A DNA stretch of 64,000 nucleotides from Bryobacterales bacterium (GTDB lineage Bacteria; Acidobacteriota; Terriglobia; Bryobacterales; Bryobacteraceae): NCBI GenBank assembly GCA_003164035.1, contig PLRS01000168.1, forward strand, positions 1-64,000, written 5' to 3'. The notes under the pieces were generated by a model that had not been told where the DNA came from, made no database searches, and saw nothing but the letters and a program-made list of their open reading frames with translations. Below are positions 11,322 through 58,008 of the stretch, piece by piece (position 1 is the first letter of the stretch; each line of letters opens with the position of its first letter). The translations under genes and the position numbers were made by a program.

Positions 11322-11348
11322 GCAACCGCTCCCTAACGGTCGCGGCTC
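11322..11348. repeat. Dispersed palindromic repeat family A, copy 1 (covers ilvD stop)
   Basis: GCAACCGCTCCCTAACGGTC followed by GCGGCTC. On the minus strand it reads AGC CGC GAC CGT TAG, the last four codons and stop of ilvD. Identical in sequence to the arms at 54391-54460. Confidence 0.8.
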
Positions 11349-13276
11349 TGAATCGCCACGCCCACTTCGGCCAAATGTTTTTTCAGCTCGGCGTTTTCGC
11401 GTTCCAACTGGGCCAGGCGGGCGGCGCCATCGAATGCGGGGCGCAGGATACGCACAGCGCCGCGGGAGGCGCTGCTGGTCAGCGATGCATAGGCCTGGAG
11501 CGCGGCGGAGACTTTGCGGTTTCGCGATTTGGGGCGATAGGCGTCGTCGCCTTTTGCGTCCATGGCCTTGCGGCGGGCGGCAAGCTGATCGTCGCCGATG
11601 GCAAGATGGAGGCGGCGGTTGGGGATATCAATCTCGATGGTGTCGCCTTCTTCCACCAGAGCAAGCACGCCGCCTTCGGCTGCTTCGGGAGAAACATGGC
11701 AGATGGAAAGGCCGGAGGTGCCGCCGGAAAAACGGCCGTCCGTAATCAGGGCGCACACCTTGCCCAAGCCCTTGGATTTCAGATAGCTGGTGGGATAAAG
11801 CATTTCCTGCATGCCGGGACCGCCCTTGGGGCCTTCGTAGCGGATCAGGACGACGTCGCCGGGAACCACTTTGTCGCGCAGGATCGCTTCCACCGCCTGG
11901 TCCTGGCTTTCCATAATGCGGGCGGGACCGGAGAACACCAGGTGGGCGGGATCGACGCCGGCAGTCTTGACGATGGAGCCGTCTTCGGCGATGTTGCCGT
12001 AGAGCACGGCCAGGCCGCCATCGGCGCTGAAGGCGTGTTCGCGGGAGCGGATGACGCCGTGGGCGCGGTCGCGGTCGAGGGCGTCGTAGCGGGCGCTCTG
12101 GCTGAATGGAACGGTGGTGCGGACGCCGGCGGGGGCGGCGCGATAGAAGCTTTCGACCTCGGGAGCGGGCTGGCGCATGATGTCGAAGCGGTCGATGGCA
12201 TCGCCCATGGTGGGCGAGTGAACCGTGTACGCTTCGCGATGGATCAGGCCGGCGCGGTCCAGTTCGCCGAGGATGGCAAAGATGCCGCCGGCGCGGTGGA
12301 CATCTTCCAGGTGGACGTCGGATTTGGATGGCGCCACCTTGCACAGGTTCGGCACGCGGCGCGAGAGCCGGTCGATATCGCGCATGTTAAACGGCACGCC
12401 GCCTTCCATGGCCGTGGCCAGAATGTGGAGCACGGTATTGGTGGAACCGCCCATGGCGATATCGAGCGTCATAGCGTTTTCAAAAGCCGAGAAATCCGCG
12501 ATGGCGCGTGGCAGCACGCTGGTGTCGTCTTCCTCGTAATAACGGCGCGCCAGGCCGACGATGCGGCGGCCGGCATCGAGGAACAGTTGCTTGCGGTCGG
12601 CGTGGGTGGCGATGATGGTGCCGTTGCCGGGTAGCGCCAGGCCCAACGCTTCGGTGAGGCAATTCATCGAATTGGCGGTGAACATGCCGGAGCACGAGCC
12701 GCAGGTGGGGCAGGCGGAGCGCTCCATGTCGGCGGTCTCGGCGTCGCTGACTTTGGGGTCCGCAGCCATGACCATGGCATCGATGAGGTCCACCGCGCGC
12801 ACCACGCCGTCCAGTTTCACCCTGCCGGCTTCCATGGGTCCGCCCGAAACAAAGATCGCCGGAATGTTCAGGCGCATGGCGGCCATCAGCATGCCGGGCG
12901 TGATCTTGTCGCAGTTGGAGATGCACACCAGGGCGTCGGCGCAGTGGGCGTTGGCCATGTACTCCACCGAATCGGCGATCAATTCGCGCGAGGGCAGGCT
13001 GTAGAGCATGCCGTCGTGCCCCATGGCGATGCCGTCGTCGACGGCAATGGTATTGAACTCCTTGGCCACGCCGCCGGCTTCGGCGATGGCGCCCGCCACC
13101 AGTTGGCCGAGGTCCTTCAAATGGACGTGGCCGGGCACGAATTGAGTGAAGGAATTGGCGATGGCGACGATCGGCTTATCGAAATCGCCATCCTGCATTC
13201 CGGTGGCGCGCCACAGACTGCGCGCTCCGGCCATATTGCGGCCGTGGGTGGTGGTTCGGGAGCGATATTCAGGCAT
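11333..13276 (-). CDS. ilvD: Dihydroxy-acid dehydratase
   Basis: Catalyses dehydration of dihydroxy-isovalerate/-methylvalerate in branched-chain amino-acid synthesis. Family hallmarks: [12 protein letters not shown] and [19 protein letters not shown] (cysteine ligands of the Fe-S cluster), [13 protein letters not shown], and [22 protein letters not shown]. At 647 residues it is about 30 longer than the E. coli-type enzyme, the extra being a C-terminal helix ([21 protein letters not shown], heptad-like) and a tail SRDR-stop encoded by a dispersed repeat. The ATG lies 24 bases beyond a duplicated copy of the ggt 3' end, suggesting that ggt and ilvD were adjacent before the DUF3800 unit arrived. 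Confidence 0.96.
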
Positions 13277-13300
13277 TTGGTATTAGTGTACAGGATGGAG

Positions 13301-13318
13301 CTACTGCCAGTAGGGCGC
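13301..13318. repeat. 18-bp direct repeat, left copy (duplicate of ggt 3' end)
   Basis: CTACTGCCAGTAGGGCGC, identical to 14385-14402 where it encodes the last five codons and stop of ggt (minus strand APYWQ-stop). It has a small internal palindrome, CTACT-GCC-AGTAG. Bases on either side differ between the two copies. Confidence 0.85.
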
Positions 13319-13363
13319 AGTGCCTGAAAGGTGGGTCGATCGGTTTTATGCGAACCTGCCGCG

Positions 13364-14143
13364 TCAGGCTCTAGAGCCAAGACCGAAGCGCCCCTGGTGG
13401 TTCCAGTTGTAGCAGGCTGGGCAGTCGCACGGACCCGTGGATGATGCAGGTCGGAAGTGCCGCAGTCCGTGCAGGGTGCCATCCCGCAGATTGAATCGGT
13501 GGATGAATTTATGGATCAGAGAAGGGTTGCGGCGTTCGTACAGCATGAACACCGAGTGAGCAACAAAATCGGCGACCTGTAGCAGACGCGTCTCTTTGAC
13601 GCTAGCGAAGTACGGAATGTCGCTGAGGTTCTTGATGACTCCCCACCGCGTACCGAGTTGGCGAAATTCATTGACCCAAACCTTGGCGCGCTTATCAAAT
13701 CGACCCTCCGCGAAAACGACTAGCCCACGCTGAGGGTCGTTTATTTCGTTCCGCTTGGTCAGAAACTTATCGAACCTGGTCAGAATTTGCTCCGTAGCGT
13801 GAAGCACCACGTCTTCACCGTAGAGCGCTGAACTTTTTTCGATCGCCGCTGCGAACAGTTGAACCCCGGGCTCGTTGGCGTTTGCGATTACATCCGCGAT
13901 GTCGTCAAGGATCTCCAGCCGTTTAACCTCCGGAATGTTCCGCCAGAAGCCCCTTCCCGTTCGAATTGGAGACGCGTGAAATTCTACGGGCGGCAGCCCG
14001 GGAAAATGCTTCGTTTGAACTGCTTCCAGGCTCTGGGACAGAAAGAACGTCACCCGTTCGAAAACGGCTGCTCCGGCCAAGACGAAGAACCTGTCCGCCG
14101 GGTCCGACTCATTGCCAGACTCATCCAAATAAAGGAAATACAT
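13364..14143 (-). CDS. DUF3800 domain protein
   Basis: A 259-residue protein opening MYFLYLDESGNES, the diagnostic DUF3800 N-terminus (Y-x-D-E-S-G) that places acidic residues on the first strand of an RNase H-like fold. Further acidic positions include VVFAEGRFDKR and LLQVADFVAHSVF, where the Q-x-A-D near the C-terminal third is also typical. The tail has a CDCPACYNW cysteine cluster, a possible metal site. DUF3800 proteins are frequent on mobile elements and near defence genes; the biochemical role is not established. Start ATG at 14143 is preceded by a weak GTGAG. Placed alone within the repeat-bounded insert. Confidence 0.85.
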   Translation of the reverse strand: MYFLYLDESGNESDPADRFFVLAGAAVFERVTFFLSQSLEAVQTKHFPGLPPVEFHASPIRTGRGFWRNIPEVKRLEILDDIADVIANANEPGVQLFAAAIEKSSALYGEDVVLHATEQILTRFDKFLTKRNEINDPQRGLVVFAEGRFDKRAKVWVNEFRQLGTRWGVIKNLSDIPYFASVKETRLLQVADFVAHSVFMLYERRNPSLIHKFIHRFNLRDGTLHGLRHFRPASSTGPCDCPACYNWNHQGRFGLGSRA

Positions 14144-14231
14144 TACTCACAGAAGAAACAAGAAGACAACTGGCCGCACCATTGAGGGCGCGACGGGTTC
14201 CACATAAGGGAACACTGCCAATTGTGACTAT

Positions 14232-14260
14232 ATACTATCCAGTTTGGATCTCGTTGTCAA
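14232..14260 (-). promoter_or_regulatory. Sigma70-type promoter inside the DUF3800 insert
   Basis: On the minus strand TTGACA (14255-14260) and TAGTAT (14232-14237) are separated by exactly 17 bases, giving a near-consensus promoter. Transcription would begin near 14225, leaving a leader of about 80 bases before the ATG at 14143. Confidence 0.65.
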
Positions 14261-14384
14261 TGAACAATTTAGATGTATGGCTACGAACGCCAAGGTTTCT
14301 GTTTTGGCCGGCTTCCCATCAAGTAGATAGCAGCGCTGCCGCCTGCCAACCATGGTGGCTCCTCGGCCCCCCGGTGCCACACAC

Positions 14385-14402
14385 CTACTGCCAGTAGGGC
14401 GC
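14385..14402. repeat. 18-bp direct repeat, right copy (ggt 3' end)
   Basis: Same 18 bases as 13301-13318. Here it is the native end of ggt, so this copy is likely the original target. Confidence 0.85.
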
Positions 14403-16067
14403 CGGCTCGGGCACGGCCGCGCCGTCCTTCCGGGGGGAACTGGCGCCGTAGTTCACGCCGGTTTTGGCGTCGTGCACCACTACCTGGCCGCCGCCCATGT
14501 TGCTCGAAAAATCGCCCATCACTTTGAACCGATGGCCGCGCGCGGCGAGGGCTTCGCGGACTTCTTTCGTCAGTCGGGCTTCGATCTGGACTTCGCAGCC
14601 GCCGAAATCGAGCTTGGTAAAGCGCGGAGCCTCCAGCGCCGCCTGGATGTTCATGCCGTGGTCCACCAGGTTGACGACGAATTGGGCGTGGGCCATGGAT
14701 TGGTTCAACCCGCCCATGATGCCGAAGCCGATGTGCGTATCACCCTTTTCCATGAAGGCCGGGATGATGGTGTGAAACGGGCGTTTGCGGGGCGCCAGAG
14801 CGTTGGGGTGATGCTCGTCCAGCGTAAACAGGCCGCCGCGATTGTGGAGGGCGAAACCGTAGTCGTCCACCACCACGCCGGAACCGAAATGCTGGTAGAG
14901 GCTCTGGATCAGGGAGACGATGTTGCCTTCGCGATCCACCGCGGCCAGGTAGATGGTATCGCCGGGCATGCTGCGCGGCTCGCCGGGCGGGGTCTGGCAG
15001 GATGCCTTTGCGGGATCGATGCGGGCGGCGCGTTCGCGGGCGTAATCCATGCTCACCATGCCGGCCACCGGCACGGGGCTGAAGTGCGGGTCGGCTACGT
15101 ATCGATGCAGGTCGGCGTAGGCCAGCTTCATGGCTTCGATCTGGAAATGCAATTCCTCGACGCCGCGCGACGGGTAGCTGGCCATCGGGTAGAGCGACAG
15201 GATGTTCAGCATTTCGAGCGCGGCCACGCCTTGGCCGTTGGGCGGCAGCTCGTAGACCTTCCAGCCGTGGTATTCGGTCGAAATCGGCTCGACCCACTCG
15301 GCGGAATATTCGGCCAAATCCTCGGCCGTCATCGTTCCGCCCAAGCGTTGGCTGGTTTTCAGAATTGCCTCGGCAAGCGCGCCGCGGTAAAACACCGACG
15401 GCCCTTCATTGGCTAGCAGGCGGTACGCGGCGGCCATTTCCGGATTGGCGAACATCTCACCCACCGACGGCGCCTCGCCGTTACGCAGAAAAACGCGTTT
15501 GGCATTGATATCGCCGCCCAGTTTCTTCTCTGACTCCTTCCACGCGCCGCCGATCATTTCCGTAACCGGGTAGCCGTGCTGGGCGAAATAAATGGCCGGC
15601 TGAAACAGGTCGCGCCAGGGCAGTTTGCCGAAGCGCTGGTGCAGCTTGGCCCAGCCATCCACGGCGCCGGGGACGGTGACCGAATCAATGCCTTCCTGGG
15701 GCATTTCGGTGGCGCCCTTGGCTTTGAGCGCGGCGATGGTGAGGCCTTTGGGCGCCCAGCCGCTCGCATTGATGGCGGAGAGCTTGCCGGTCTTGGCGTC
15801 CCAGTAGATGGCGAACAGGTCGCCGCCGATGCCGCAGCTTTCCGGTTCCACCACGCCGAGGGCGGCATTGGCGGCAATGGCGGCGTCCATGGCGGAGCCG
15901 CCGCGCGCCAGCACTTGCGCGCCCGCCTGCGACGCCAGCGTCTGGCTGGTGGCCACCATGCCGCGGTCGGAAATCACCATGGAACGCGCCGAGGAACGGT
16001 CCTGCGCGGGAAGGGAAGGGGCAATCGTCGCGAGCATCAGCATACTGGACCAGGCTCCCGTGTTCAT
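14385..16067 (-). CDS. ggt: Gamma-glutamyltranspeptidase family protein
   Basis: Ntn-hydrolase precursor of 560 residues that self-cleaves before a catalytic Thr and removes gamma-glutamyl groups from glutathione-like substrates in the periplasm. A short signal peptide (LMLATIAPSLPAQ) precedes the large-subunit motifs GGSAMDAAIAANAALGVVEP and CGIGGDLFAIYW. The autocleavage Thr is the T of PGDTIYLAAVD, followed by small-subunit GGLNQSMAHAQ and SSNMGGGQVVV. I chose ATG at 16067, which follows the DinB-like stop by 2 bases with GAGGTGAGG as ribosome site; the frame is open further upstream but that part only shadows the DinB gene. The 3' end has been duplicated next to ilvD. Confidence 0.93.
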   Translation of the reverse strand: MNTGAWSSMLMLATIAPSLPAQDRSSARSMVISDRGMVATSQTLASQAGAQVLARGGSAMDAAIAANAALGVVEPESCGIGGDLFAIYWDAKTGKLSAINASGWAPKGLTIAALKAKGATEMPQEGIDSVTVPGAVDGWAKLHQRFGKLPWRDLFQPAIYFAQHGYPVTEMIGGAWKESEKKLGGDINAKRVFLRNGEAPSVGEMFANPEMAAAYRLLANEGPSVFYRGALAEAILKTSQRLGGTMTAEDLAEYSAEWVEPISTEYHGWKVYELPPNGQGVAALEMLNILSLYPMASYPSRGVEELHFQIEAMKLAYADLHRYVADPHFSPVPVAGMVSMDYARERAARIDPAKASCQTPPGEPRSMPGDTIYLAAVDREGNIVSLIQSLYQHFGSGVVVDDYGFALHNRGGLFTLDEHHPNALAPRKRPFHTIIPAFMEKGDTHIGFGIMGGLNQSMAHAQFVVNLVDHGMNIQAALEAPRFTKLDFGGCEVQIEARLTKEVREALAARGHRFKVMGDFSSNMGGGQVVVHDAKTGVNYGASSPRKDGAAVPEPAPYWQ

Positions 16068-17115: not shown

Positions 17116-17496
17116 TCACAGCTTCTGCGCTCCGGTGGTCTTTCCGAGCGCGCGATCGAACGTGCCGAGCGGCAAGTGTCCGGCCTTGCGCGCCAGGTGG
17201 AACATCAGGCAATCGGAAAAACCCAGAGCCGGCCGCGAACGGAACAGATCCAGCGCAGCCGCCACGGTGTCGGAATCCTGCAGTGTCAGATCCTTGTGGT
17301 TCAACAGCATCTCGAGCGCGGTGGCAAGCTGGGCGGGGCCGAACTCGTAGACGGTTCCGAGCACCCAGGTGGCTTCGGCCAGCGCGAGAACCGATACCCA
17401 GGCGCCCTTCTCGACGAATTGGTCGGCGGATTTGGCCTGAGGAAGATCGTCTCGCGTAATCAGCCGAACCAGAACATTGGTGTCAATCGCGCGCAT
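17116..17496 (-). CDS. vapC: PIN-domain ribonuclease toxin, VapC family
   Basis: A 126-residue PIN domain. The acidic catalytic set is visible: Asp5 in MRAIDTNVLVRLI, Glu in LALAEATWVL, Asp in LGFSDCLMFHLARKAG and Asp in LGTFDRALGK. VapC toxins cut specific RNAs and are neutralised by the adjacent antitoxin. Its ATG overlaps the antitoxin 3' end by 14 bases, the usual antitoxin-first arrangement. No missing catalytic residue seen. Confidence 0.92.
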   Translation of the reverse strand: MRAIDTNVLVRLITRDDLPQAKSADQFVEKGAWVSVLALAEATWVLGTVYEFGPAQLATALEMLLNHKDLTLQDSDTVAAALDLFRSRPALGFSDCLMFHLARKAGHLPLGTFDRALGKTTGAQKL

Positions 17497-17746
17497 GGCG
17501 GTTTCGGATGCGCCGCTGGATTCCCTGTCTCATGTCGTCGACTGTCCGAGGTCCCGGCGCCTGAGCGGGGAACAGCGCCCGATGGATGTCCTCGGACGAA
17601 AATCGCGCCGAACGCCGCACCACGATGTTAGGCCCATCCTCATCCCACTCCAGGACCGAACCGGGGCCGACGCCGAGCTTTCTTCGGACGCTGGCGGGGA
17701 CCGAAATCTGCCCCTGCGCCGTCAGCTTCGACTGAGCGATTGCCAT
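17483..17746 (-). CDS. vapB: AbrB/MazE-type antitoxin of the VapBC pair
   Basis: An 87-residue protein with an N-terminal swapped-hairpin SpoVT/AbrB DNA-binding domain (AQSKLTAQGQISVPASVRRKLGVGPGSVLEW, written here only in part as KLTAQGQISVPASVRRKLG). The C-terminal half, which includes SSEDIHRALF and MRQGIQRRIR, should wrap the toxin. It comes first in the operon and overlaps vapC. A palindromic ATTACC-AC-GGTAAT sits 10 bases before the start, a likely autoregulatory operator. Confidence 0.9.
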   Translation of the reverse strand: MAIAQSKLTAQGQISVPASVRRKLGVGPGSVLEWDEDGPNIVVRRSARFSSEDIHRALFPAQAPGPRTVDDMRQGIQRRIRNRHARD

Positions 17747-56472: not shown

Positions 56473-58008
56473 TCAGGGTAAGGGAACTGTTTGGGGTTTC
56501 AGCAGGGTGGGGAGGCGATCGACGGCCTGGCCCAGGGCGCGGGCCAGGCTCAGTTTAGCCAAATTGTGGGCGAAGACGCTGTCGATCAGGTCCAATTGCG
56601 CGCTGGCGACGGTTTGTTGCGCCTGCACGACCTCGACGGTATTGATGATGCCGGCTTCCATGCGCGCGCGGGTCATCTCCAGGGTTTGCTGGGCGACCTG
56701 CAAATTCTTGCGCGCGACCTCGACCTGGCCGGCGGCGGCTTCCAGATCGAGGTATGCCTGCCGGACTTCGCCTTCGACCTGCCCGCGGATGTCGTCCAGC
56801 TCGGCCCGGCGTTGCGCCAGCACGGCTTCGGCCTGGGCGATGTCGCCCGCCGTTCGCCCGCCCTGCCACAGGGGAATGCTGAGGGTGCCGACCGCGCTGA
56901 AAGCTCCGTGGGATTGGGCCGGGTTGGTGCCGATGGCCTCGTAATAACCGCTCACCGCGACCGAAGGCAGCCGCTCGGCGCGCGCCGCGGACAGCGCCTT
57001 GGCGGCGGCATCCACCTGCGATTGGGCGGCCTTGATATCGGCCCGCTGTTGTTCGGCCTGGGCCACGGCCTGGTCGACATTCTGGACCGGCGCCGGGCTG
57101 AAGGGAAAGCTATCGGTGAGCCGATAGGCGTCGCTGGGAGCAAGGCCGGTGAGGCGCGCCAGGTTGATCTTTTGTTTGGCGAGATCGTTGCGCAGGGTAA
57201 TGATCTGCTGTTGTTGGGTGAGGGTCCGCACCTGGTTTTGATCGACGTTGAGCTGCGCCAGCACTCCGTGGCCGTGTTGCTCGGTGGATTGATGCAGGAC
57301 GGCATTGGCGGTATCGAGTTGGGCTTGAGCGGCATCCACACGGGCTTGGGCTGCCAGCGCTTGTAGATACGCGCCGCCCACGGCGAGGGTGACGAGGTCG
57401 TGCGCATCCTCCAGGCTGAACTCGCTGGCGCGGGCGGTGGCTTTGGCGGAGCGGTAGTTGTTCAGCGTGGTCAGGTTCGCCACGGTCTGGCTCAGGGTGG
57501 CTTGCAAAGTGAAGTAGTTGAACGGGCCGGTGACGGTGGGAATGCGGAAGCCGGCGAGGGGCACGCTGATGCGCAGGCCGAAGGCGGCGAGATCGGTCTG
57601 CGCCACCGTTTCGCTGAGACCGGCGGCAACGTTCGGCAGCAACGCGCTGCGCGCCACCGTCACCTGGGCGCGGTTCTGGCGCACGCTTTGCGCCAGCCCG
57701 ACGGCGCCCAGGTTGTAAGCCAGGCCGCGCCGGAGCGCCTCGGCGAGCGACAGGTTGCCGGAAAAAGGCATGGCGGTGGTGCTGCGCGCGCTGCCGCTGT
57801 AGGGTCCGGAGACCTGCACGCTGGGATTCAGGGTGTTGACGCTGGTGGTGGTCCCCGCCACGGGCTGTTCGACCGCGCCGGCCGAGCCCCCCTGGTTGTT
57901 GCGGCCCGAGGCGGGCAGAGCCACCGCGCCGCCGGAGGAAGACTGCGCCAAGGCGCCGCCGGCGCCTACCAGGACGGTCAAAAACACAACGCTCCCGAAT
58001 CGTTTCAT
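56473..58008 (-). CDS. TolC-family outer-membrane efflux protein
   Basis: About 511 residues from ATG 58008, preceded by GAGGG; a start at 58023, overlapping the MarR stop as ATGA, is also possible. Signal peptide [18 protein letters not shown], then two OEP repeats: [21 protein letters not shown], and a second half with [38 protein letters not shown] and [20 protein letters not shown]. These form the helical channel through the periplasm. It is the last gene of the efflux operon, opening the outer-membrane exit for the ABC/HlyD pump. Confidence 0.92.

Follow-up and report, generated by a model that had tools for sequence, protein, structure and literature searches.

A solo DUF3800 gene with its own promoter and a predicted leader RNA, flanked by an exact 18-bp direct repeat between ggt and ilvD in a Bryobacterales genome

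Introduction

DUF3800 genes preceded by structured leader RNAs are widespread and are linked to rare CRISPR systems. Their proteins have been described as nucleases of the RNase H fold with links to noncoding RNAs, and they have been found with CRISPR V-A2 and VI-F loci (PMC10910872; PMC12669027); in the literature we found no experimentally tested function for DUF3800 genes that have structured leaders. Small self-contained units, often toxin-antitoxin genes, are also known from the Xer (dif/cer) modules of plasmids, which are moved by borrowed recombinases (PMC12907356). Here we analyze a DUF3800 gene that lies between ggt and ilvD in a 64,000-nucleotide stretch of a Bryobacterales genome, the whole of which we call the window. 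The unit consists of a promoter, an RNA, and a gene, and it is a divergent new member of the DUF3800/leader-RNA group.

Results

The window lies on contig C140 of a draft genome (G000) of 169 contigs with an estimated contamination of 4.3%. DUF3800, ggt, and ilvD are all on the minus strand, and the features of the locus are as follows.

11333 to 13276, minus strand: ilvD, dihydroxy-acid dehydratase (Pfam PF00920 and PF24877), downstream neighbor of the insert
13301 to 13318, plus strand: distal copy of the 18-bp direct repeat, exact, 24 bp before the ilvD start
13319 to 14384, minus strand: insert of 1,066 bp, GC 0.547, delimited by both repeat copies
13364 to 14143, minus strand: intact DUF3800 gene, 259 aa, ATG start and TGA stop (PF12686), with the invariant residues kept and an RNase H-type fold in the predicted model
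14167 to 14224, minus strand: predicted leader RNA, three-way junction, 58 nt, DUF3800-VI-like, from folding and a 17-leader alignment
14232 to 14260, minus strand: promoter TTGACA-N17-TAGTAT, from sequence, with its predicted transcript start at the leader RNA 5' end
14385 to 14402, plus strand: proximal copy of the 18-bp direct repeat, equal to the final five ggt codons plus stop and containing CTACTG-C-CAGTAG
14385 to 16067, minus strand: ggt, gamma-glutamyltranspeptidase (PF01019, 520.7 bits), upstream neighbor of the insert

The initial annotation of this DNA had described a one-gene unit inserted at the 3' end of ggt with an exact 18-bp duplication. The 18-mer, CTACTGCCAGTAGGGCGC, does occur at 13301-13318 and 14385-14402 in two exact copies on the same strand, the match being maximal at 18 bp, and the second copy is indeed the end of ggt with its TAG stop codon. 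It is not a frequent genome-wide motif; the 8.0-Mb genome holds exactly two copies, even when 2 mismatches are allowed. As a control for chance, the upstream flank of one DUF3800 locus was compared with the downstream flank of another in 600 mismatched pairs; the longest common word was 14 bp, and the 18-bp repeat is therefore beyond chance. An assembly artefact or chance repeat might be suspected in a draft genome with this number of contigs and this estimated contamination, but 18 bp is shorter than the usual assembly words, the control maximum lies below it, and a second genome has a similar unit with a repeat (see below); we consider such an origin hardly credible.

Several further points of the initial annotation held up. 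The near-consensus promoter (TTGACA, 17 bases, TAGTAT) is present at 14260-14232 on the minus strand, and the gene between the repeats is DUF3800, with a PF12686 match of 58.8 bits against a gathering cut-off of 21. The composition is unlike that of the neighbors both in GC (0.646 in ggt and 0.647 in ilvD) and in GC3 (0.64 in the insert versus 0.82 in ggt and 0.81 in ilvD), and deletion of the insert and one 18-mer leaves 24 bases (13277-13300) from the ggt stop to the ilvD ATG. The statement that only a DUF3800 gene with its promoter lies between the repeats needs amendment: the insert holds one promoter and DUF3800 is its sole recognized gene, but the folded leader RNA had been overlooked. 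The insert has no inverted ends, with no common inverted word longer than 6 bp in its 80-bp ends. Supported by the unique repeat and the deviating composition, recent insertion of a one-gene unit between ggt and ilvD with target duplication is very probable, the duplication at this site being read from the repeat itself. The insert is most likely a laterally acquired, foreign unit of promoter, small folded RNA, and predicted nuclease gene.

Elsewhere in the neighborhood, a MazE-type antitoxin and PIN-domain toxin pair (VapBC-like) lies at 17119-17746, about 1 kb upstream of ggt. The bases at 13277-13300 perhaps include a -10-like box (TACACT), and many relatives (L108-L134) have such a box about 10 to 20 bases before the ilvD start, which hints at leaderless ilvD transcripts.

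A DUF3800 homologue occurs sporadically in the family, in 19 of 237 genomes. The two closest, 85% and 79% identical, have neighbors different from those of the window unit: the former lies behind fabI and the latter beside a radical-SAM gene and IS-like sequence. Among the family genomes ggt (in 41) and ilvD (in 29) were never adjacent, and no empty ggt-ilvD site was found. The 85% homologue lies between fabI and sucA, and no empty site was found there either, as its genus-mates carry other genes after fabI. A tRNA-Ser gene upstream of the unit in genome G007 was considered and rejected, since the tRNA 3' end has no matching copy beyond the gene. Some acidobacterial genera keep DUF3800 at one fixed place across species and without repeats, as in vertical inheritance.

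A sister insertion was found in a genome of the same family, G167, in which an exact 192-bp direct repeat (L060, 1132-1323 and 2284-2475) flanks a solo RNA and DUF3800 unit in a membrane gene. The repeat is a piece of the 3' part of the membrane gene; in 4/4 genus-mates of G167 this gene is uninterrupted and the 192-bp piece is single copy. The G167 insert, 960 bp long, likewise has a promoter, RNA, and DUF3800 with no other recognizable gene, and it is oriented like its host gene; its DUF3800 protein is 33% identical to that of the window. It ends 12 bp after the DUF3800 stop, versus 45 bp in the window. The two inserts have no common end sequence and neither has inverted ends, and the 18-bp and 192-bp repeats have no sequence in common. 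This independent insertion, with its exact repeat and the empty sites in genus-mates, strengthens the reading of the window unit as an insertion with target duplication, as had been proposed. The 192 bp of G167 would also suit homologous (Campbell-type) integration, with the gene end already present on a circular or captured fragment. RecA, however, does not recombine efficiently over as little as 18 bp, and the donor would have had to carry the end of ggt; we regard this route as very unlikely.

Repeats of this kind are uncommon at DUF3800 genes. Among 49 DUF3800 loci with usable flanks, a scar-like repeat was found at two, the window and G167, and no convincing imperfect flanking repeats were found at other units. 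Two candidates were rejected: a 21-bp repeat at L159, which is a dispersed ACACAGAT motif, and a 14-bp repeat at L063, which is of the same length as the control maximum. At L159 (genome G672), dispersed ACACAGATAAACACAGATG repeats surround a DUF3800 gene whose folded leader is of another kind.

Movement of the unit can be read more directly on plasmids. The ColE1-type enterobacterial plasmids L100 (5,128 bp) and L107 (4,097 bp) of E. coli form an occupied/empty pair differing by one RNA and DUF3800 unit, and the breakpoints fall within Xer-type sites, GGTGCACGCAA-CAGATG-TTATGGTAAAT and a relative, which we take to be cer/psi-like. In E. coli the unit occurs in 12 of 5,426 genomes and is plasmid borne in all 12. 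Two Pseudomonas phages carry DUF3800 in the lysogeny region, beside the repressor. The units behave as passenger genes and use whatever recombination is at hand; this follows from the three situations in which they occur (bounded by Xer sites on plasmids, fixed in some genera, and in a phage lysogeny region) and from the presence of scars at so few of the loci.

These data bear on whether the window unit entered by site-specific integration in trans. In that case it would be a recombinase-less, CIME-like passenger, and a tyrosine recombinase encoded elsewhere in the genome would have taken the 18-bp end of ggt for its core. The repeat stops exactly at the ggt stop with the gene restored, the 18-mer includes a 6-bp inverted repeat with a 1-bp spacer (true of 1.4% of local 18-mers), the genome has 16 integrase-type matches, and the plasmid modules are bounded by Xer sites. 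Both scars, moreover, lie at or near a gene 3' end with the unit in the same orientation, a pattern of site-specific integration that counts against the explanation we prefer (see Discussion). However, none of the 16 matches is on the window's contig and the genome has no further copy of the 18-mer; no Xer site was found at the window unit, and the dif half-site TTATGTTAAAT was not found in the window within 2 mismatches. The length and unrelated sequence of the G167 repeat speak against one common core, as does the lack of a comparable repeat at the other 47 of 49 loci. We therefore judge integration in trans unlikely. The same evidence tells against the cassette suggested in the initial annotation, which would integrate at gene 3' ends by means of a short core: the two repeats differ in length and sequence, inverted or conserved ends are lacking, scar-like repeats are rare, and where movement is precisely readable the ends fall in Xer sites.

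The window leader is predicted to fold into a three-way junction (-26.4 kcal/mol, z -3.9; 0/200 shuffles equally stable) consisting of an outer helix, CAATTGGC/GCCAGTTG, and two hairpins, and its 5' end is the transcription start expected from the -10 box. An alignment of 17 DUF3800 leaders, the window's among them, shows a common architecture with compensatory changes in 13 of 19 predicted pairs. The leader of an archaeal homologue scores 51.5 bits against Rfam DUF3800-VI (RF02915), above the cut-off. The window leader itself gave no Rfam match up to an E value of 10, did not reach the RF02915 gathering cut-off, and was missed by a covariance model built from 15 other leaders; as this model does detect leaders in most other units tested, the window leader is a divergent variant. 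The case for an RNA in the window is thus made from common architecture, compensatory changes, and folding energy rather than from a covariance-model match; the predicted architecture is the same as that of DUF3800-VI, in a sequence too divergent for Rfam detection. In some chromosomal units as well as in phage and plasmid ones (L087, L089, L094, and L095), a separate terminator-like hairpin or U-run lies between leader RNA and start codon; a short transcript of the RNA may therefore exist as well. Positions 57015-57081 of the window match the DUF3800 leader model weakly (15 bits, E 0.07), probably by chance.

For the protein, no solved structure matched by sequence and no NCBIfam match was obtained. 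The AlphaFold2 model (pLDDT 84.9) has type 2 ribonucleases H (RNase HII/H2) as its nearest solved folds (Z 10.8, rmsd 2.7 Å, 153 residues), and recombinases are absent among the listed fold matches. D7, E54, D111, and D192, which are invariant or nearly so among DUF3800 homologues, are kept. The window protein matched none of the PADLOC anti-phage defense models; its homologues match PDC-M04A weakly (15.7 to 19.4 bits). DUF3800 thus models as an RNase HII-like nuclease, a fold that leaves the substrate unrevealed, and that it is a nuclease partnered with RNA seems to us slightly better than an even bet.

The initial annotation had left DUF3800 as either cargo or the nuclease/recombinase that moves the unit. 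It is quite probable that DUF3800 is carried as cargo and does not itself integrate the unit; a role as recombinase at gene ends is not supported. A stronger version of the latter would make RNA and DUF3800 a minimal one-gene, RNA-assisted insertion system, in which a target nicked by the nuclease would receive the unit of about 1 kb, with target duplications of variable length. Two independent one-gene inserts with no other recognizable gene, each with a folded RNA upstream, are in keeping with this, and transposases and RuvC are among the proteins with RNase H folds. Most units, however, lack scars, fixed and vertically inherited loci exist, conserved ends are absent, plasmid copies have Xer sites at their ends, and the closest solved fold is RNase HII; we give such a system only a very slim chance.

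Discussion

Most probably the window unit is not a self-moving element but passenger DNA that bears a scar. On balance, though with appreciable doubt, we favor a laterally acquired, moron-like RNA and nuclease cargo unit whose placement relied on borrowed or illegitimate recombination, with a scar of variable length as the result. A self-contained unit (own promoter, structured leader RNA, and DUF3800 nuclease gene) would have entered between ggt and ilvD, and the direct repeats would stem from joining or filling in at a staggered break or at paired nicks around the incoming DNA; they would then be scars of illegitimate or repair-type insertion and not a fixed recombinase site. Repair of staggered ends could give repeats of any length, and we put an insertion of this staggered-break type at a little under even chances. 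A search for Ku was positive in G000 and negative in G167; it is therefore unlikely that Ku-dependent end joining is the common route. The cargo nuclease, RNase HII-like, may work with its own leader RNA or be restrained by it, and the pair might act as a defense or toxin-antitoxin-like unit.

From the window and G167 insertions, together with the occupied/empty plasmid pair, the smallest functional unit emerges as promoter, RNA, and gene, which makes RNA binding, toxicity, or defense directly testable. The pair of sharply delimited insertions is the most useful product of this analysis, and single-gene insertions with duplications of 18 and 192 bp at their edges offer a view of lone genes entering chromosomes without a transposon.

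Among the known systems close to the unit are the Rfam DUF3800-VI (RF02915) genes, with which it shares a three-way-junction RNA directly upstream of an RNase H-fold DUF3800 gene; it differs in that its leader is undetected by Rfam and in its exact flanking repeat. The G167 unit is alike in its solo promoter, RNA, and DUF3800 gene, its exact direct repeat, and its host-gene orientation, and differs in the length of the repeat and its place within a membrane gene's 3' part, in its distant protein, and in its ends. With regard to type III toxin-antitoxin (ToxIN-like) systems, in which an RNA neutralizes the nuclease, the putative RNA of the window lies upstream of the predicted nuclease gene. 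An insertion sequence or transposon would have terminal inverted repeats and a duplication of fixed length, whereas the window insert lacks the former and the duplication differs in length between the two cases; unlike a tyrosine-integrase element, the insert has no integrase, DUF3800 being its only recognized gene, and there is no PF00589 match on contig C140. The DUF3800 units of ColE1-type plasmids resemble Xer modules, with XerC/XerD core sites at the ends of the E. coli plasmid homologue, whereas the window unit has no dif-like site. Phage morons are single genes with their own promoter placed between host genes; the window unit shares this plan, and DUF3800 in two Pseudomonas phages adds to the likeness, but the window unit stands between two chromosomal metabolic genes. 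Finally, transposed non-transposon genes at new places flanked by direct repeats have been described in Arabidopsis (PMC2869330), an analogy only, from a plant genome, for a single gene set down between direct repeats in a bacterial chromosome.
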